The position numbers and the translations under genes are program-made. Of a stretch of 32,082 nucleotides of DNA, positions 14,761 to 32,082 are shown one piece after another (position 1 is the stretch's first letter; the number at the start of each line of letters is the position of its first letter). The notes under the pieces were generated by a model. The model was given only the letters and a program-made list of their open reading frames with translations, was not told where the DNA came from and made no database searches. The stretch comes from an uncultured Mycoplasmatota bacterium. Its GTDB lineage: Bacteria > Bacillota_I > Bacilli_A > RF39 > UBA660. Location of the stretch: the NCBI GenBank assembly GCA_945919295.1, contig CAMEJC010000010.1, positions 1-32,082 on the forward strand. Direction: 5' to 3'.

Positions 14761-15222
14761 TCAACTAATTTTAGCCATTTTTACATCTTCTCTATCCTTA
14801 TATATATTAATCATATCAATAATTATTTTCTTTATTTCTTCGCCGTCAGTAGTAGCCTCTAACTTAATATCATACTCATCAATCATATCATTAATACTAT
14901 CATCACCAAGTAAATATTCAGTTACCTTAAGATCTTTACCATATACCTCTTTAATTTTTTCAATATTATTCTTATTTTTAGTCATTGCCACCACCATATT
15001 ATACTTTCCATCTTCTTCATAATATATATAATTAGCACTTACTCCCGAAGCTTTCATAGTTTCATAATCACTATAAGAACTATCTTGAAGTAAATAAATA
15101 ACATTTGAATTAAGTACATTACTCCCTTTATCTTCATATATACTAAACATAAGTCTTCCACATACAAAACCACAAAATACTGACCAAAAAATAGGTACTA
15201 CTATTTTTTTTAACTTATTCAT
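14761..15222 (-). CDS. SPOR-like single-pass membrane protein, 153 aa
   Basis: One N-terminal transmembrane helix (about 8-26) follows a KK-rich start. The extracytoplasmic part reads like a SPOR domain: YLLQDSSYSDYETMKAS, then ANYIYYEEDGKYNMVVAMTKNKNNIEKIKEVYGKDL. These fit the strand-helix-strand pattern of peptidoglycan-binding SPOR modules. A ~45-residue helical tail follows. The ATG at 15222 has GGTGAT at proper spacing. Family membership is inferred by eye; a role in septum or wall association is likely but unproven. Confidence 0.75.
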   Translation of the reverse strand: MNKLKKIVVPIFWSVFCGFVCGRLMFSIYEDKGSNVLNSNVIYLLQDSSYSDYETMKASGVSANYIYYEEDGKYNMVVAMTKNKNNIEKIKEVYGKDLKVTEYLLGDDSINDMIDEYDIKLEATTDGEEIKKIIIDMINIYKDREDVKMAKIS

Positions 15223-15275
15223 TATATCACCAAAAATAGTATATACCTATCTATATAAAAACTTTGTCGAATTAT

Positions 15276-16058
15276 CTATACTTCTTCACTAAAATCACAA
15301 TACAACTTGGTTGGTATATCAGTAGTAAAATCAATTAAAAAATATTGATATCTTATTGTATCTAATTTATAAAAATCATATTCTATTGTCTTTTCTTCAT
15401 CAATATAGCATTTTAAATCAGTACTACTATCAGACGAGTAGAATAGCTGATCATAGTTTGTAAAAACATCATATCTTGGGCCATAATCACTATTATCAAA
15501 TTCAATAGTTGTTTGCTGATTACCATAATAACCATGAACATCTAAATATACATAATATTTTTTCAATACTTTTTCATTCAAAATAGGAATAATAATATCA
15601 TAATCATTTCCTTCAAAGATATTAGTAAATGTCATATAAAAAACAATATATTTTTTATCAGTATCATTAGAAGTACTAACACTAATACCTACATTACCGC
15701 TTAATTTAGTATCAAATTTTTTAGTATAACCACCATATGTTATTTGTTTTTTATCTTTATCAATAACCAATGTATTTGTTGTTCCATCTTCAAAAGTTAT
15801 ATTACAATATTTATTATCACTTTTACAATAAACATCTTTGATAATCCCTAAATCATTAATATCATTTTCAATTAATTCTTTAATATTTTTAGTTATTAAA
15901 GCCTTATCAGTCATAAAAACAGTATCAACATAATAATTATCTGTTTTATCAACTAATTTCATCGTTATATCAATTAAAAAGAAAGCAATTACAAATGCAA
16001 TAGCGGATGCTAATATAATTTCAATAGTCAAATACCCTTTTCTATTCAGTTTCAACAT
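15276..16058 (-). CDS. Type IV pilin-like (minor pseudopilin) protein, 260 aa
   Basis: A short basic leader ends in RKG, then YLTIE, i.e. cleavage after Gly and Glu at mature position 5, as in class III type IV prepilins. The following ~25 residues are hydrophobic (IILASAIAFVIAFFLIDITM). The C-terminal ~220 residues form a Tyr/Asp-rich, probably beta domain with no match I can name. A prepilin peptidase would be needed but is not in the window. The ATG follows GGTGAT and lies 4 nt after the second pilin gene, so the two are coupled. Likely a minor subunit of a ComG-like or type IV pilus machine with the ATPase at 16651. Confidence 0.85.
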   Translation of the reverse strand: MLKLNRKGYLTIEIILASAIAFVIAFFLIDITMKLVDKTDNYYVDTVFMTDKALITKNIKELIENDINDLGIIKDVYCKSDNKYCNITFEDGTTNTLVIDKDKKQITYGGYTKKFDTKLSGNVGISVSTSNDTDKKYIVFYMTFTNIFEGNDYDIIIPILNEKVLKKYYVYLDVHGYYGNQQTTIEFDNSDYGPRYDVFTNYDQLFYSSDSSTDLKCYIDEEKTIEYDFYKLDTIRYQYFLIDFTTDIPTKLYCDFSEEV

Positions 16059-16062
16059 CTTA

Positions 16063-16545
16063 TCACCTTACCTTAAGTGCATAGTAATAGCAGTCATCAT
16101 CATTCTTACAAATTTCTGAAATAATAACATAATTATAATCATCATTAAAATAAAATTTAGTACCCAAATAATCAATAAATTCTTTAGTAGTTTCTTTAGT
16201 AGTAGACAAACCTTTTAATTCATCTATTTTACCCTTTTTATATAAAGAAAAATATAAATTAACATCATCATTATTATAAGTATTTAAAAGTTGATTAACA
16301 TCATCATTATTAATTTTTATTGAATTCCCAGTTTTTATAATAGTATTAATATATCCATTTTCAATCAAAGCATCATTTGCCATCATAGCCAAATACAAAG
16401 CATCAATATCATAATACCTATCCCTTTTTTCATAAGCAGAAGATACTCTATTAAGTCCCGTAAATAAAGTGATTAAAACAACAGCAATAACCACCGATAC
16501 TACGACAACCTCTGCCATCATAAAACCTTTTCTACCAAATTTCAT
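16063..16545 (-). CDS. Type IV pilin-like (minor pseudopilin) protein, 160 aa
   Basis: The leader MKFGRKG precedes FMMAE, again Gly at -1 and Glu at +5, followed by a hydrophobic helix (VVVVSVVIAVVLITLF). The globular part is short and contains a Cys-x4-Cys near the end (EICKNDDDC), perhaps a disulphide. The ATG at 16545 is preferred over a GTG at 16557 because that GTG lies inside the SD sequence GGTGAT. First gene of the pilin pair, divergent from the assembly ATPase. Confidence 0.85.
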   Translation of the reverse strand: MKFGRKGFMMAEVVVVSVVIAVVLITLFTGLNRVSSAYEKRDRYYDIDALYLAMMANDALIENGYINTIIKTGNSIKINNDDVNQLLNTYNNDDVNLYFSLYKKGKIDELKGLSTTKETTKEFIDYLGTKFYFNDDYNYVIISEICKNDDDCYYYALKVR

Positions 16546-16567
16546 CAATTTTATCACCTTTTTACTA

Positions 16568-16596
16568 TTGCTATTTAATTAATTATATTATATAAT
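16568..16596 (+). promoter_or_regulatory. Promoter of the pilus ATPase gene in a divergent intergenic region
   Basis: TTGCTA (16568-16573) and perfect TATAAT (16591-16596) are separated by 17 nt on the plus strand. A second TATAAT at 16582-16587 on the minus strand, with a poor -35, could serve the pilin genes, giving overlapping divergent promoters. Confidence 0.55.
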
Positions 16597-16650
16597 ATTT
16601 ATAGAATAAAATCTAGTCTTTTTAGAAAAAAGAATGAAAAGAGGGATACT

Positions 16651-17985
16651 ATGCAAGGTAATACTAACACTATGCCAGGTAATATACCAAACAGTAGTCA
16701 AAACAATATTAGTAATCGTAGTATACAAAATAGTATTAATCCTAATACTGCCAATAATCAAAAACCAACAAACAATACCTCTAAAAATATTGACTTTGCC
16801 AAAATGCCTGTTGTTAATGTTGTTAATATGATTATTATAAATGCTGTTAATCTTGGAGCAAGTGATATCCATTTTGACCCCACAGATGAAGGAATTAATG
16901 TAAGGTTTAGAATTGATGGACAATTAAATAACTATTATTTTCTTCCTAAAGAAATTAAACAAAATGTCACAACAAGAATCAAAATAATGGCTGGAATGAA
17001 TATTACCGAAACGAGACTCCCTCAAGATGGTGCTATCAAAGATAAATTAAATGGTAAAGATCTAGATTTAAGAGTATCTTCTCTTCCTACTAAAAAAGGA
17101 GAAAAAATAGTTATCAGAATTATGGATTATTCAATGAGTTTAAAAGGCATTGAATATCTATACTTTAGTGAAACAAATTATAATAAAATATTAAAAATGT
17201 TAAACTTCCCTAACGGAATAATTTTAGTTACTGGTGCCACTGGTACTGGTAAATCTACTACATTGTATTCATTTCTTCAAAAACTAAATATTGAAGGATC
17301 TAACTTAATTACTGTAGAAGATCCAATTGAAATGGATATTAAAGGAATAAATCAAGTTCAAGTTAATAGCGATATTGGTTTAGACTTTGCAACAGTCCTA
17401 AGGAGCATCTTAAGACAAGACCCAAATGTAATAATGATTGGAGAAATAAGAGATTCAGAAACTGCTCAAATAGCAGTTAGAGCTTCCATTACTGGACACT
17501 TGGTATTATCTACTATACATACAAACAATTCATTAAATACTATTGAAAGACTTTTAGATATGGATGTAGAAAGATATTTACTTGCTTCTGCCTTAACTGG
17601 TATTGTTTCCCAAAAATTAGCTCGAAAACTTTGTAACAAATGCAAAATAAAAAGACCAGTTACTGTTACCGAAAAAAATCTTTTTAAATCAGTTCTTGGT
17701 CTTGATATCAATGAAGTATTTTCCCCAAATTCAACCGGTTGCCCAAATTGTAACCATGGTTATCATGGAAGAATAGCAATTCAAGAAGTACTATTGATAA
17801 ATCAAGACATTAGAGATGCCATTTCTGCAGGCATAAGAAAAGACGAATTACGACATTTAGTCTATAACAAAGATGTTATAACCCTGCTTCAAGATGGATT
17901 ATTTAAAGTAATCGCGGGCTTTACAACAACTGAAGAAATATTAAAATTAATTGAAGTTGAAGATGAAGACTTCGGTTTAAAATAA
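16651..17985 (+). CDS. PilB/GspE-family type II secretion or type IV pilus assembly ATPase, 444 aa
   Basis: A hexameric ATPase that powers pilus or pseudopilus assembly at the inner face of the membrane. After an Asn/Ser-rich low-complexity N-terminus (about 1-50) come GASDIHFDP and the N-terminal domain typical of GspE/ComGA. Then Walker A GATGTGKST (~residue 196), the Asp box region TVEDPIE, Walker B VIMIGEIRDSETA and the His box GHLVLSTIHTN. A tetracysteine zinc site CNKC...CPNC is as in PilB. It is shorter than PilB (~565) because the N1 domain is missing, closer to ComGA plus zinc motif. The ATG follows GAGGG. A bidirectional terminator starts at its stop. The partner pilins are on the opposite strand. 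Confidence 0.95.
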   Translation: MQGNTNTMPGNIPNSSQNNISNRSIQNSINPNTANNQKPTNNTSKNIDFAKMPVVNVVNMIIINAVNLGASDIHFDPTDEGINVRFRIDGQLNNYYFLPKEIKQNVTTRIKIMAGMNITETRLPQDGAIKDKLNGKDLDLRVSSLPTKKGEKIVIRIMDYSMSLKGIEYLYFSETNYNKILKMLNFPNGIILVTGATGTGKSTTLYSFLQKLNIEGSNLITVEDPIEMDIKGINQVQVNSDIGLDFATVLRSILRQDPNVIMIGEIRDSETAQIAVRASITGHLVLSTIHTNNSLNTIERLLDMDVERYLLASALTGIVSQKLARKLCNKCKIKRPVTVTEKNLFKSVLGLDINEVFSPNSTGCPNCNHGYHGRIAIQEVLLINQDIRDAISAGIRKDELRHLVYNKDVITLLQDGLFKVIAGFTTTEEILKLIEVEDEDFGLK

Positions 17986-26770: not shown

Positions 26771-28156
26771 TTATAATTTATTCTTTTTACGATAGAAATA
26801 TATTCCAGAACATAGAGATAATACCAATAATACCGCTACAATAATATAGATTATATTACCTGTAGGAGGAGGCATCACATCATTTTCTACTACTTTACCA
26901 TCTTTATCTTTCCTATTTATTTTAAATGTATATACTCTTTCATCACCATTTTCTGCAATTACTTTACATTCTAAGGTATTAGACCCAACTTTTATATCTG
27001 CTAGATTAAATATATACATATAATCATCTTCTGGATATACACGATATTCCATATAAAACATTTTGTTATTTTTATATACAATATCCTCGTAATATTCATC
27101 ATTATCTTTTACTACTCTAACAAGTTCATTATTTAGATAATAAGAGCATTCTGTCTCATGATCATTACATTTTTCTTCAGCCGATTCAATACTTGATAAA
27201 TATTCTTTAAATATATTAATATCATAAATACTATCACCATTAAATATAACATCACCAACTTTAGCTTTGTCAGAAATGTCCCCTCCCACGAATAATAAAC
27301 ATTCAGATAATTCATTACTTATTCTATTTTTTCCATCTAAATCCATAAAACATAAATTAGACTCTTTATTATCTATAGTTAACTCATAACTTGTTTTATT
27401 TTTATCAAATCCTATATCATAATTAACAAAATTAAAGTCAAGTAAATAATTTTCTTTACTTCTACTATCAGGTCTAGTTATATTTAATGTATATGTTTTT
27501 TTAGTACCATCTTCTGCTGTTACTACTATATTATAAGTATTTTTACCATAATTTAAATTCTTGGTTCCATCGCCAGTAACTGTAGCTTTACTATCTTCCT
27601 TAGTCACCACAATATTAGCAGTACTATCTTTTAATTCAATATCAAAAGAAGTTTTATTCTTACTAAAGAAAGCCCCATCTCCATTTACTTTTATACCAGA
27701 CAAATTGTTATTACTACTAGGTATTCTTATACTTGCACTTGCATCTACTATTTCATATTCTTCTTTATCATGTGAAAAAGTAGTGTTAGATAAAGTTATT
27801 TTTTCATCTTTGTTAGTTACATTATCTTTTGCCTTTAATGTTAATAACCCTATAGTGAAATCTGATTTTACTGTTTCTTCTCTATAAACACTTATTTTTT
27901 TATCAGATAAATCGTTACCTTGCCAAGAACTTTGTGGAGTAAAACTTACTATTTCTAAATTATCAGATAGATTTATAGTTGTGTCTATAGATGTTATTTC
28001 ATTATCTGTTTTTCCTTTTATTGTACATTCAGTTGTATTACCTGCTTTTATAGCACTTGGATTACAGGAAATAGTTATATTTCCTGTATCCGCATTAACA
28101 TAAAATGGTAATATCATTATTATAAATGTTATTATTGAAAATATCTTTTTTCTCAT
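26771..28156 (-). CDS. Secreted cohesin-like/cadherin-like sandwich protein with PPPTG wall-anchor-like tail, 461 aa
   Basis: Signal peptide (MRKKIFSIITFIIMILPFY, then VNA). Residues ~25-150 read like a cohesin or related beta-sandwich: ISCNPSAIKAGNTTECTIK, NLEIVSFTP, then FTIGLLTLKAKDNV and KITLSNTTFS. A cadherin-like beta-sandwich (PF12733 type) follows at ~152-228, ending GTKKTYTLNITRP. Two more sandwich-like segments follow, the last ending NGDERVYTFKINRK. The C-terminus is PPPTG (429-433), a 22-residue hydrophobic helix and RKKNKL, which has sortase-signal layout with an unusual pentapeptide. The start overlaps the stop of the upstream gene by 4 nt. I infer the membrane- or wall-bound anchor of a scaffold; no sortase gene is in the window. 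Confidence 0.85.
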   Translation of the reverse strand: MRKKIFSIITFIIMILPFYVNADTGNITISCNPSAIKAGNTTECTIKGKTDNEITSIDTTINLSDNLEIVSFTPQSSWQGNDLSDKKISVYREETVKSDFTIGLLTLKAKDNVTNKDEKITLSNTTFSHDKEEYEIVDASASIRIPSSNNNLSGIKVNGDGAFFSKNKTSFDIELKDSTANIVVTKEDSKATVTGDGTKNLNYGKNTYNIVVTAEDGTKKTYTLNITRPDSRSKENYLLDFNFVNYDIGFDKNKTSYELTIDNKESNLCFMDLDGKNRISNELSECLLFVGGDISDKAKVGDVIFNGDSIYDINIFKEYLSSIESAEEKCNDHETECSYYLNNELVRVVKDNDEYYEDIVYKNNKMFYMEYRVYPEDDYMYIFNLADIKVGSNTLECKVIAENGDERVYTFKINRKDKDGKVVENDVMPPPTGNIIYIIVAVLLVLSLCSGIYFYRKKNKL

Positions 28157-29799
28157 TTTTCAACCTCCAACGTATCTACTCTCTTCTTAAAGAAACGATA
28201 TAGTCTTGCTACGTCATTTATTTTTATTGAACTATCATTTATAATATCACCTGAAAAAGTTTGATACTTCTCAAACGTCTTTTTACCTTTCAAATTATTA
28301 TATAATAACGCTACATCACCATTATCTATTTTTCCATCACCATTTATATCTCCTAGAACAGATATCGTATAAATTTCAGTTTTTTCTTCTAAAGCTATTT
28401 CTACAGTATCACCAGTTTTAATTATATTTGTTTTATCTAATTCTTCCTTACTATCTTTATCCTTTACCGTTACTGTTCCTGAAGTATCTATTTTAGTTAA
28501 TAATGTTTCTACCGTAGTATCATGTTCTTGTCTTGTTAGTATCTTATTAGTATCATCTTTAGTAGTTTTAATATTTAAATATTCTTCACTAAATTCATAT
28601 TCTTCTAATAACTCTTCTTTATAATATACTTTTAATTTATCATTTTCAGTTAAAGTACCAGTAGTTATTTCTTCATTATTATTATCAAATATTTTTATTG
28701 TTACACCAGATAATACTAAACTATTTATAAATGTATCATAATCTACATTTTTACCTATATATACCTTATTATTAGCTATACTATATTTATTACTAGTAAT
28801 ATTAATTAAATTAATCTCTGTTACCTTTTCTTCACCATAACTTATCGTTAATATATTATTTTCCACATTACCAGTTAATTCTTTTGGTAAGTTTAAATTA
28901 GATATTATCGCATCCTTATTTACATCACTCTTAGTATATAAATTATTATCTTCTTTATAATACTTATATATATCCGTTGTAAGAGTATATGGTCTAAATA
29001 CTTTTATAGTATATATATTTTCTTTACCTGTTTCACTAATTACTTTAATATCTATATTATTAGTACCATAATGTAACTTAATATTCTCTAATATTCCCTC
29101 AATAGTAGAATATTCATTTGTTTTTTCTACAGTTATATTTAAAGTATCACTATCAATAGTACTAGTATAAATATTACTATCCTTATTAAACTCTTCATTT
29201 AAAGTTCCTTTATCTAAAGTAATATTATTTAAAGTATTAACATCAGAAGGAATTCTTATTTCCTTTACTACATCTTCACTAGTATAAAATGCTTCTCCAG
29301 AAGTATTAGATATTTTAATATTACTAAAAGTTATAGTAAATATATCACCATTTTCAGCAGTATCTGGTACCTTATATTTAAAAGTACCAAGTGTATATGT
29401 ACCTTTTATTCCTCCACCAGACAAATTAATCGTCATAATACCAGAACTATTACCAGATACCATCTCGTAACAACCATTTTCTTTAGTACAACTTGAATCC
29501 TGTGTAAACGATTCAAAAGTTAAATCATCATATATTATGCTTATGTTCATACCCTGTGATTCCTCAGTAGATATATTAACACTAATATCACAAGATATAG
29601 TTTCCCCAGCCTTAGATGTTTCTGGACAAGTAATATTTACATAATCTGTACTATTTATAGCATATGTACTATTTTTCGTAACAAATATAAGTATTATTAC
29701 CATTATAATAATAAACAACATTATACCAATACTAATATATTTATTCTTCTTAATAAAACGAATCCCATTATCAAATAATAACTTAATTCTATTTATCAT
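28153..29799 (-). CDS. Adaptor-like surface protein: TM segment, cohesin-like domain, sandwich domain, C-terminal dockerin, 548 aa
   Basis: A basic N-terminus precedes a hydrophobic helix (21-40), either a signal anchor or a long signal peptide (TYA at ~44-47). Residues ~50-190 look cohesin-like: CPETSKAGETISCDISVNIS, GMNISIIYDDLTFESFT, GIMTINLSGG, YTLGTFKYKVPD. A cadherin-like sandwich follows (to ~285), ending NIYTIKVFRP. Next comes a module shared with the LRR protein (LINITSNKYSI). A pre-dockerin module (KTGDTVEIALEEKTEIYTISVL) leads into a type I dockerin at ~482-545: GDINGDGKIDNGDVALL and GDIINDSSIKINDVARLY, both with Asp at the calcium-loop positions. Start and stop overlap neighbours by 4 nt. 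A protein carrying both cohesin-like and dockerin modules would bridge anchor and client. Confidence 0.85.
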   Translation of the reverse strand: MINRIKLLFDNGIRFIKKNKYISIGIMLFIIIMVIILIFVTKNSTYAINSTDYVNITCPETSKAGETISCDISVNISTEESQGMNISIIYDDLTFESFTQDSSCTKENGCYEMVSGNSSGIMTINLSGGGIKGTYTLGTFKYKVPDTAENGDIFTITFSNIKISNTSGEAFYTSEDVVKEIRIPSDVNTLNNITLDKGTLNEEFNKDSNIYTSTIDSDTLNITVEKTNEYSTIEGILENIKLHYGTNNIDIKVISETGKENIYTIKVFRPYTLTTDIYKYYKEDNNLYTKSDVNKDAIISNLNLPKELTGNVENNILTISYGEEKVTEINLINITSNKYSIANNKVYIGKNVDYDTFINSLVLSGVTIKIFDNNNEEITTGTLTENDKLKVYYKEELLEEYEFSEEYLNIKTTKDDTNKILTRQEHDTTVETLLTKIDTSGTVTVKDKDSKEELDKTNIIKTGDTVEIALEEKTEIYTISVLGDINGDGKIDNGDVALLYNNLKGKKTFEKYQTFSGDIINDSSIKINDVARLYRFFKKRVDTLEVEK

Positions 29800-32082
29800 T
29801 TTAGTTCACTTCCCTTAGTAAAATAATTAACTATTTTTATAACATCATCTACATCAGCTTGTCCATCACTATTAACATCCGAAGATAATAAATATGCCTC
29901 TTCTAAAGATGTTTTACCAACAAAATGATTAACTATTTTAATAACATCATCTACATCTACTTTACCATCACCACTAGAATCTCCTATTAAAGATAAAATA
30001 TATTCTATACCATTATCAAATATTATTTTATCCCCTGTTCTTAAATTTCTATCAGTAATAACATTATTATCTTTATCCTTAATACTATAACTAATATTAG
30101 TTAATATATTATTCTTAAACACATCAACATTAGTACCATTAACTATCTTACTAATTATCTTTTTATCATCATTCTTATCATAATCAATTATATCCAAATA
30201 TTCTTTTTCATTAGATATATTAAATATCTTTATAGTATTATTATTTAACTTACATACTAATTTATTATCACTAACAGATAACTCCAAATCATCACTAGTA
30301 ACATTACTAAGTATTATCCCTTCTATAGTATACTTCATATCACATTCATTTGCACATTCAGTTTGATTTGCAGTATTAGTACAACTAGAATAACAGTTAT
30401 TTAAATTTGATTCCATTTCTTCTTCAGCACTATCTATAAAGATAGTATCTTTATTAACCTGATAAGTACTATTTATTTTATATAATGTATATTCTTTAAT
30501 TACTTTATCATTATATTTAATAACTAATTTATTATCAACTATCTCTTTAGTACCATAATTAATATTTATCTTATTTAAATCTAAATTATTTACATATACA
30601 ATATCATTATTATTAATATTATATATATTAGAATTAACTTCTAATTTAATTAAATTATATTCTTTAATTACTTTACCATTATGTTTAATTATTAGTTTAT
30701 TATCAACTATCTCTTTAGTACCATAATTAATATTTACATTATCTAAATTAAATTCTTTATTCAAAAAAGTAGTGTATTTTATTTCATTATCTTCAACAAA
30801 ATAATTATCAGATGTCACTTCTAATTTAATTAAATTATATTCTTTAATTACTTTATCATTATGTTTAATTATTAGTTTATTATTTTCAATATAATTAGTA
30901 TATCCATCTACATCACCATAATCAAACTCAATATTACTAAGTATTTTTTCACTATCAGTATCAAAATTAATATATATATTATCTTTATCTATTATATAAG
31001 TATCAGAAGTAATATTATATACATAGATAAAACATCTTTGTGGATCTTCATTAAAATAAAATTGTTTGATTAATGTTTTTTCTGAATTATATATCGCTTG
31101 TAATGCTTTTCCCATTCCAGTTTTTATAGGAGTAATTTTATTATCTTCAATTTTCAAAATATTAGTATCTTTAGTACTTAAACTGGTAGTCCATCCAGTA
31201 GGAAGTATTATTCCTCTATCTAGAGTAAATTCCTCATCTAATAAAGTATAATATTTTGTAAATAAATTATCTTCATATGCTAAATACTTTAATCTTGTAT
31301 TCTTACTTACATCTAGTTCTGTTAATTGATTGTAGGATACATTCAAATCAGTTAAAGCTGTATTCTTACTTACATCTAGTTCTGTTAATTGATTGTATTC
31401 TACATCCAATTTAGTTAATGCTGTATTCTTACTTACATCTAGTTCTGTTAATTGATTGTAGGATACATTCAAATCAGTTAAAGCTGTATTCTTACTTACA
31501 TCTAGTTCTGTTAATTTATTGCCCCGTGCAATCAAATCAGTTAATGCTGTATTCTTACTTACATCTAGTTCTGTTAATTGATTGTTCCGTGCAATCAAAT
31601 CAGTTAAAGCTGTATTCTTACTTACATCTAGTTCTGTTAATTGATTGTATTGTGCATACAAAGTAGTTAATGCTGTATTCTTACTTACATCTAGTTTTGT
31701 TAATTGATTAATTTCTACATTCAAATAAGTTAATGCTGTATTCTTACTTACATCTAGTTCTGTTAATTGATTATGTCTTACAGACAAATCAGTTAATGCT
31801 GTATTCTTACTTACATCTAGTTCTGTTAATTGATTACCATCTACATCCAAATAAGTTAATGCTGTATTCTTACTTACATCTAGTTCTGTTAATTGATTGT
31901 TATATACACTCAAAGAAATTAAAGCTGTATTCTTACTTACATCTAGTTCTGTTAATTGATTATCACCTACACTCAAACCAGTTAAAGCTGTATTCTTACT
32001 TACATCTAGTTCTGTTAATTGATTATTACCTACACTCAAACCAGTTAAAGCTGTATTCTTACTTACATCTAGTTCTGTTAAT
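29796..32082 (-). CDS. Leucine-rich repeat surface protein with C-terminal dockerin (5' end beyond the window)
   Basis: The reading frame is open to the right edge, so the N-terminus is missing; TTG codons in the repeat should not be taken as starts. About 761 residues are visible. First come 12-13 near-identical 21-aa LRRs of the form LTELDVSKNTALTxLxVxxNQ. Then an irregular capping region (TGWTTSLSTKDTNILKIEDN). Then about three ~55-aa repeats built on NKLIIKHNDKVIKEYNLIKLEV. A Cys-rich insert (NCYSSCTNTANQTECANEC) follows. Last are a pre-dockerin module (RTGDKIIFDNGIEYILSLIGD) and a dockerin with two calcium loops, GDSSGDGKVDVDDVIKIV and SDVNSDGQADVDDVIKIV. It is the first visible gene of the operon and probably a receptor or adhesin docked onto the downstream products. 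Confidence 0.9.
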   Translation of the reverse strand, partial: LTELDVSKNTALTGLSVGNNQLTELDVSKNTALTGLSVGDNQLTELDVSKNTALISLSVYNNQLTELDVSKNTALTYLDVDGNQLTELDVSKNTALTDLSVRHNQLTELDVSKNTALTYLNVEINQLTKLDVSKNTALTTLYAQYNQLTELDVSKNTALTDLIARNNQLTELDVSKNTALTDLIARGNKLTELDVSKNTALTDLNVSYNQLTELDVSKNTALTKLDVEYNQLTELDVSKNTALTDLNVSYNQLTELDVSKNTRLKYLAYEDNLFTKYYTLLDEEFTLDRGIILPTGWTTSLSTKDTNILKIEDNKITPIKTGMGKALQAIYNSEKTLIKQFYFNEDPQRCFIYVYNITSDTYIIDKDNIYINFDTDSEKILSNIEFDYGDVDGYTNYIENNKLIIKHNDKVIKEYNLIKLEVTSDNYFVEDNEIKYTTFLNKEFNLDNVNINYGTKEIVDNKLIIKHNGKVIKEYNLIKLEVNSNIYNINNNDIVYVNNLDLNKININYGTKEIVDNKLVIKYNDKVIKEYTLYKINSTYQVNKDTIFIDSAEEEMESNLNNCYSSCTNTANQTECANECDMKYTIEGIILSNVTSDDLELSVSDNKLVCKLNNNTIKIFNISNEKEYLDIIDYDKNDDKKIISKIVNGTNVDVFKNNILTNISYSIKDKDNNVITDRNLRTGDKIIFDNGIEYILSLIGDSSGDGKVDVDDVIKIVNHFVGKTSLEEAYLLSSDVNSDGQADVDDVIKIVNYFTKGSELK
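31290..32082 (-). repeat. Tandem 63-bp LRR-coding repeats, ~12.5 units
   Basis: Each unit has an almost invariant ~38-bp block (encoding LTELDVSKNTAL) followed by a ~25-bp block that changes from unit to unit (encoding TxLxVxxNQ). Two units (ALTDLNVSYNQ) are identical across both blocks. The array runs past the window edge. Confidence 0.95.

Follow-up and report, generated by a model that had tools for sequence, protein, structure and literature searches.

A probable four-gene operon for a putative carbohydrase-free cohesin-dockerin surface assembly in an uncultured Mycoplasmatota bacterium

Cohesins and dockerins are nearly always treated as components of cellulosomes. Here, we describe a locus in an uncultured Mycoplasmatota bacterium that we judge likely to be the final stretch of an operon of four genes encoding a small cohesin-dockerin surface assembly free of carbohydrases, with the chain anchor B-adaptor-LRR client, where the client is a leucine-rich repeat (LRR) protein. 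In the proposed arrangement, anchor B would be held by its C-terminal membrane segment and perhaps also by a sortase, and its one cohesin would take the C-terminal dockerin of the adaptor, whose own cohesin would in turn take the dockerin of the LRR protein. The internalin-J-like repeat array of the LRR protein would form the displayed binding surface, and anchor A, encoded on a second contig, could contribute one more cohesin belonging to the same subfamily. Binding of dockerins to cohesins depends on calcium, and we infer calcium dependence, a surface location and an adhesive purpose for the assembly as a whole.

Gene order and probable continuation of the operon

The window, by which we mean the whole analyzed stretch of 32,082 nt, comprises positions 1 to 32082 of contig C10 in a draft genome of 1.27 Mb and 77 contigs. 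Three genes on its minus strand encode the 3' part of an LRR-dockerin protein (29796..32082, 761 codons), the adaptor (28153..29799, 548 aa), and anchor B (26771..28156, 461 aa). The sequence-only reading had described three minus-strand genes overlapping by 4 nt at both junctions, which the gene coordinates bear out, with ATGA shared by the LRR and adaptor genes at 29796..29799 and by the adaptor and anchor B genes at 28153..28156 (both minus strand). It had also taken the unit to be complete with three genes, where we find four: the LRR gene runs off the end of C10, and contig C50 holds its 5' part, including the gene start (MKDKLKK...), preceded by the gene for anchor A (467 aa) with another ATGA overlap, so that all four genes are ATGA-coupled. 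The ends of C50 and C10 share an exact 49-nt overlap with the same reading direction, and the 63-nt LRR unit occurs within the genome only at these two contig ends. Because of this confinement, the overlap, and the gene content of C50, the four genes very probably run in the order anchor A, LRR-dockerin, adaptor, anchor B, giving an LRR-dockerin protein of ~926 aa or more once the two parts are joined. Promoter and terminator scans performed no better than shuffles.

This gene order recurs in a second genus at ~35% identity. In a Bacilli MAG from goat colon, a contig of 92,523 bases (L004, judging by its length the same as G061, L105) carries the four genes in identical order, encoding proteins of 413, 731, 539, and 306 aa; its adaptor is 35% identical to that of the window, and there too the client combines LRRs with a dockerin.

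Domain architecture and the LRR client

Throughout the operon, dockerins are C-terminal on client and adaptor, and cohesins are N-terminal on adaptor and anchors. The adaptor consists of an N-terminal hydrophobic segment, the cohesin, a Cadherin-like domain (PF12733, 28993..29229, minus strand; E 2.4e-4, just below cut-off), a further uncharacterised region, and the dockerin. Anchor B combines a signal peptide and a cohesin with Cadherin-like repeats, present as three stretches, of which the one after the cohesin lies at 27470..27709 (minus strand, E 1.6e-13), and ends in a C-terminal transmembrane (TM) segment with a PPPTG-type signal. This putative sortase signal, PPPTG followed by a hydrophobic segment and a basic tail (26777..26872, minus strand), is a borderline match to the LPXTG_anchor model, at 17.9 bits in the genome search and 14.1 in hmmscan against a cut-off of 15.9, and the model fires in 13 of 14 control genomes; three sortases are encoded in the genome. 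Anchor A has an N-terminal domain as in the adaptor and anchor B, Cadherin-like repeats, and a C-terminal TM segment.

Pfam finds LRRs and Dockerin_1 in the LRR protein. The repeat array (31296..32082, minus strand) has a period of 63 nt, or 21 residues (LTELDVSKNTALTxLxVxxNQ), with ~12.5 copies. The unit is similar to that of Listeria internalin J (NCBIfam E 3e-56, well short of the model cut-off), which makes adhesion to, say, mucus or a second cell a plausible, though unproved, role for the client. The N-termini of both the LRR protein and the adaptor appear to be long hydrophobic segments that might escape cleavage. The N-terminus of the LRR protein may stay in the membrane itself, and uncleaved N-termini would make a tether unnecessary for these two proteins.

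Dockerins of the operon and of the genome

The LRR protein and the adaptor had been read as ending in DxNxDGxxxxxD-type dockerins, and both matches to the type I dockerin family (PF00404) pass the cut-off of 22.9 bits in a genome search, the adaptor at 35.8 bits and the LRR protein at 23.8 (Pfam Dockerin_1, E 1e-7 and 0.004, respectively). The family's defining feature, a duplicated F-hand calcium loop DxNxDGxxxxxD with a helix, is present: the LRR protein dockerin (29802..30005, minus strand) has two canonical loops with symmetric VDDVIKIVN helices, and the adaptor dockerin (28192..28356, minus strand) has one canonical loop and a degenerate second one (DIINDSSIKIND).

The whole genome encodes three dockerins, on the LRR protein, the adaptor, and a SagB-like glucosaminidase on contig C18, and none of the three is borne by a plant-polysaccharide enzyme, in keeping with the earlier proposal that an LRR protein is displayed here rather than a carbohydrase. 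Nor did we find a multi-cohesin scaffoldin; the window proteins have one cohesin each, and the three window-type cohesins and those of C18 are spread over separate proteins. The reading as a degenerate cellulosome is rejected, as neither such a scaffoldin nor a dockerin-bearing plant-polysaccharide enzyme was seen. With one cohesin and one dockerin in the same protein, the adaptor has the makeup of a monovalent adaptor scaffoldin. Further cohesins on C18 could suggest that the operon dockerins serve partners elsewhere, such as the C18 anchor, or on other cells, leaving the operon cohesins as free receptors; we regard this as highly improbable, given that the C18 dockerin (KLDYLAVLR) is unlike both operon dockerins and that a cohesin of the other class lies next to it on C18.

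Identification of the N-terminal domains as cohesins

As single sequences, neither the adaptor nor anchor B matches the Pfam cohesin model PF00963, which gave zero matches in their own genome at E 1e-3 and one at 0.004. An HMM of cohesins from related two-gene pairs (described below) matched anchor B alone among the two proteins (E 9e-4), leaving the adaptor unmatched. Pfam by itself would have rejected the cohesin reading; a subfamily profile and the predicted fold decided otherwise. We built a profile (A3) of 18 related N-terminal domains representing the operon subfamily, which in a search of the PDB matched cohesin 2xdh first among cohesins (E 4.1e-6) and seven further cohesin sequences at E 0.009-0.084, including those of Clostridium perfringens and Ruminococcus flavefaciens, along with one adhesin domain, 9ifr (E 1.5e-4). 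Aligned directly with a profile of the Pfam-positive pair cohesins (A6), A3 reached E 1.4e-8 (hhalign, 95.5%), and a stricter profile without its two Pfam-positive members retrieved cohesin-bearing ORFs only, down to E 0.04.

Fold comparison of AlphaFold2 models with solved structures (Foldseek and VIA) gave the same picture, with the proviso that the alignments behind the models contained three clear cohesins and could favour a cohesin fold. The adaptor domain (29230..29667, minus strand; pLDDT 84.7) matched cohesin 6kgd with Z 13.4 and an rmsd of 2.8 Å over 131 residues, and the anchor B domain (27701..28099, minus strand; pLDDT 87.5) matched cohesin 2vo8 with Z 16.6 and 1.7 Å over 124. Ranked by Z, the top 27 adaptor matches and the top 28 anchor B matches were solved cohesins, and the first other sandwich folds followed at Z 11.1 and 11.6, respectively. 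CLIPPER and pilin sandwiches are among the further matches, at Z about 10-11.6. The scaffold proposal had been staked on these domains not folding as unrelated sandwiches, and the models of both fold as cohesins. By predicted jelly-roll fold and by profile homology to characterised cohesins, then, the N-terminal domains of the adaptor and anchor B are cohesins, and the earlier description of them as cohesin-like stands despite the lack of a PF00963 match.

A cohesin fold could nonetheless be a relic, or a generic adhesin sandwich, in which dockerin binding has been lost. Such a loss would fit the failure of either protein alone to pass PF00963, the CLIPPER and pilin matches, and a pair of Cys residues conserved in 16 of the 18 subfamily members and absent from the related pair cohesins. 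We nevertheless find it very unlikely, since cohesins lead the structural matches clearly, the operon itself encodes dockerins, and the classes of dockerin and cohesin correspond.

Glucosaminidase-dockerin and cohesin pairs across the family

The operon had been viewed as a self-contained unit, and it is not the only such unit in its genome: contig C18 carries one pair of a glucosaminidase-dockerin and a cohesin-anchor. We surveyed 193 genomes from the same taxonomic family as that of the window, in which PF00404 exceeded its cut-off in 145 and PF00963 in 84. The Pfam models placed at least 55 dockerins and cohesins as neighbours on the same strand, with a domain-to-domain gap of 104-157 nt, and the two genes usually lie ~10 nt apart. 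Using the family's own cohesin profile, at least 75 of 150 listed dockerins, in at least 73 genomes, had a cohesin 79-128 nt downstream, and the reverse order, with the cohesin upstream, occurred at none of these 150. Outside the family within the same class, PF00963 is rarer and falls mostly in long ORFs.

The client of these pairs usually contains SH3 domains and a SagB-related region (NCBIfam E 5e-16 to 2e-7, n = 3, far below the model's cut-off), and all 54 of the clients examined end in Dockerin_1. Its partner consists of a signal peptide, a cohesin and a Cadherin-like domain, usually with a hydrophobic segment at the C-terminus. On balance we favour the view that this family of genome-reduced gut Bacilli uses cohesin-dockerin coupling as a general means of surface attachment unrelated to nutrition, with tethering of a SagB-like peptidoglycan glucosaminidase to a membrane protein with one cohesin its most widespread use, and with lineage-specific units adding adaptors that would display LRR proteins, papain-like proteases, and other clients.

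Proposed pairing of dockerins with cohesins

These related two-gene pairs, rather than the four-gene operon itself, allowed a test of co-variation. In 51 pairs, with one taken per genome, the distances among dockerins correlated with those among cohesins (r 0.63). Controlling for the client catalytic and anchor C-terminal regions left a partial correlation of 0.55, a value reached in 0 of 2000 permutations, with control partial correlations of 0.08-0.17. At residue level, mean mutual information exceeded that of the permutations, yet no single column pair was significant. Dockerin class also predicts cohesin class, in that for 65 of 69 pairs the neighbouring cohesin was of the class indicated by the nearest dockerin from another genome (shuffled mean 48.6, maximum 60). 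Because of this relationship, pairing of the adaptor dockerin with the anchor B cohesin is supported at the level of sequence classes: the dockerins closest to it (L122, L112, and L114) are all encoded just ahead of anchor-B-type cohesins. The LRR dockerin is closest to dockerins that go with the other cohesin class, so its putative pairing with the adaptor cohesin rests on adjacency and on the synteny in the goat-colon MAG.

The components could also be wired differently, with the LRR protein and the adaptor each docking directly onto anchors A and B, or with all four proteins forming a membrane-held lateral complex. Two anchors with cohesins of one subfamily would suit such an arrangement, as would the hydrophobic N-termini of the LRR protein and adaptor and two genomes (G069 and G022) in which an LRR-dockerin gene is immediately followed, without an intervening adaptor, by an anchor-B-type cohesin. 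On the other side, the LRR dockerin differs from the class found mostly upstream of anchor-B-type cohesins, and the adaptor is conserved between LRR protein and anchor in the goat-colon MAG, leaving this alternative wiring unlikely, if a serious contender. The linear chain of anchor, adaptor, and LRR client, as the sequence-only reading had drawn it, finds support in that synteny, in the match of dockerin and cohesin classes, and in the co-variation of the pairs, its partners remaining putative.

Relation to known cohesin-dockerin systems

Several elements of this assembly have counterparts in R. flavefaciens-type cellulosomes and nonSLH anchoring scaffoldins, which share cohesin-dockerin couplings, single-cohesin adaptors, LPxTG/TM anchors, and LRR-dockerins (PMC11557425, PMC2930009). 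Monovalent adaptors and LPxTG or C-terminal TM anchors are known in cellulosomes (PMC11557425), and R. flavefaciens has 28 LRR modules on dockerin proteins (PMC2930009). In a large screen, finding both domains together is taken to indicate cellulosome-like complexes (PMC12997984). In contrast to cellulosomes, client, adaptor, and anchors are here encoded in one operon in a genome with three dockerins. The pairs of C. perfringens (NagJ, GH33; 2ozn, 2vo8, 2jh2) are likewise non-cellulosomal, and anchor B finds its closest structural counterparts among their cohesins (Z 15.8-16.6); the C. perfringens modules sit on secreted glycosidases, whereas those described here would connect an LRR client with anchors in the membrane. 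Cohesins outside cellulosomes, such as Archaeoglobus 2xdh, were reportedly surveyed by Peer et al. in 2009, a work cited in PMC2930009; 2xdh is the best PDB profile match in our analysis. An adaptor-anchor operon of the present kind is not known from that survey.

We found no literature linking dockerin, cohesin, and RF39, which does not prove its absence, and the papers examined on reduced gut Bacilli mention neither cohesin nor dockerin. The novelty earlier claimed for the unit holds in part: LRR-dockerins, monovalent adaptors, TM/LPxTG anchors, and non-cellulosomal cohesins were already known, and what is new, as far as our searches show, is a minimal, carbohydrase-free chain encoded in one operon, together with its simpler, widespread two-gene relative. 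These appear to be small one-to-one couplings, encoded in operons and lacking cellulosomal enzymes, in uncultured bacteria whose genomes are ~1.2 Mb in size. If our reading is true, they would represent a minimal form of the cohesin-dockerin system and supply many natural cognate pairs for specificity studies; the pairs are short and easily expressed, making the idea directly testable.

The two-gene pairs also invite comparison with Staphylococcus aureus, in which SagB and SpdC, a CAAX-protease-like membrane protein, form a peptidoglycan release complex (PMC12272431). The clients of the pairs are similarly SagB-like glucosaminidases partnered with a membrane protein, which suggests, if the coupling is real, that a cell-wall hydrolase is kept at the membrane non-covalently; unlike SpdC, the partner here would be a single-cohesin membrane protein, joined via the dockerin.

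N-terminal to the dockerin of the LRR protein lies a repeated module of the form NKLIIKHNxKVIKEYNL (window 30000-31300, minus strand), to which a stretch of the adaptor is related (window 28600-28930, minus strand), and stretches resembling it are also present in relatives. We propose that this module is possibly a counterpart of the X modules of cellulosomes.

Cohesin and dockerin share a single polypeptide in ORFs of ~2.9 kaa at G010:C8, G126:C10, and G029:C27 (genome:contig), and likewise in one of 1.1 kaa at G083:C1, with a cohesin-dockerin spacing of ~1 kb in these cases. In the relative G178, cohesin and dockerin genes are clustered on the plus strand of contig C7 (locus L111, 242-17387), where single-cohesin proteins, one of which bears PQTG, come first. 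The genes after them encode dockerin proteins that combine a papain-like protease with lectin-like or LRR domains, and the cluster would thereby specify a small protease assembly. Another relative, G184, has 19 dockerin matches and was absent among the genomes listed as positive for PF00963 (cohesin) in the search of 193 family genomes; one of its proteins, of 483 aa, contains six dockerins in tandem (L182, contig C16, 3649-5100, minus strand).

Elsewhere in the window's own genome (G000), a second cohesin-like, Cadherin-like membrane protein (L103, contig C18, 77-1432, plus strand) is encoded upstream of the glucosaminidase-dockerin gene of that contig, and a sortase match (contig C57, 3095-3806, minus strand) lies near the ORF carrying the best LPXTG signal of the genome. 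By eye alone, window 14761-17985 appears to encode a type II secretion/pilus-like ATPase on the plus strand and, opposite it on the minus strand, small proteins with prepilin-like N-termini.
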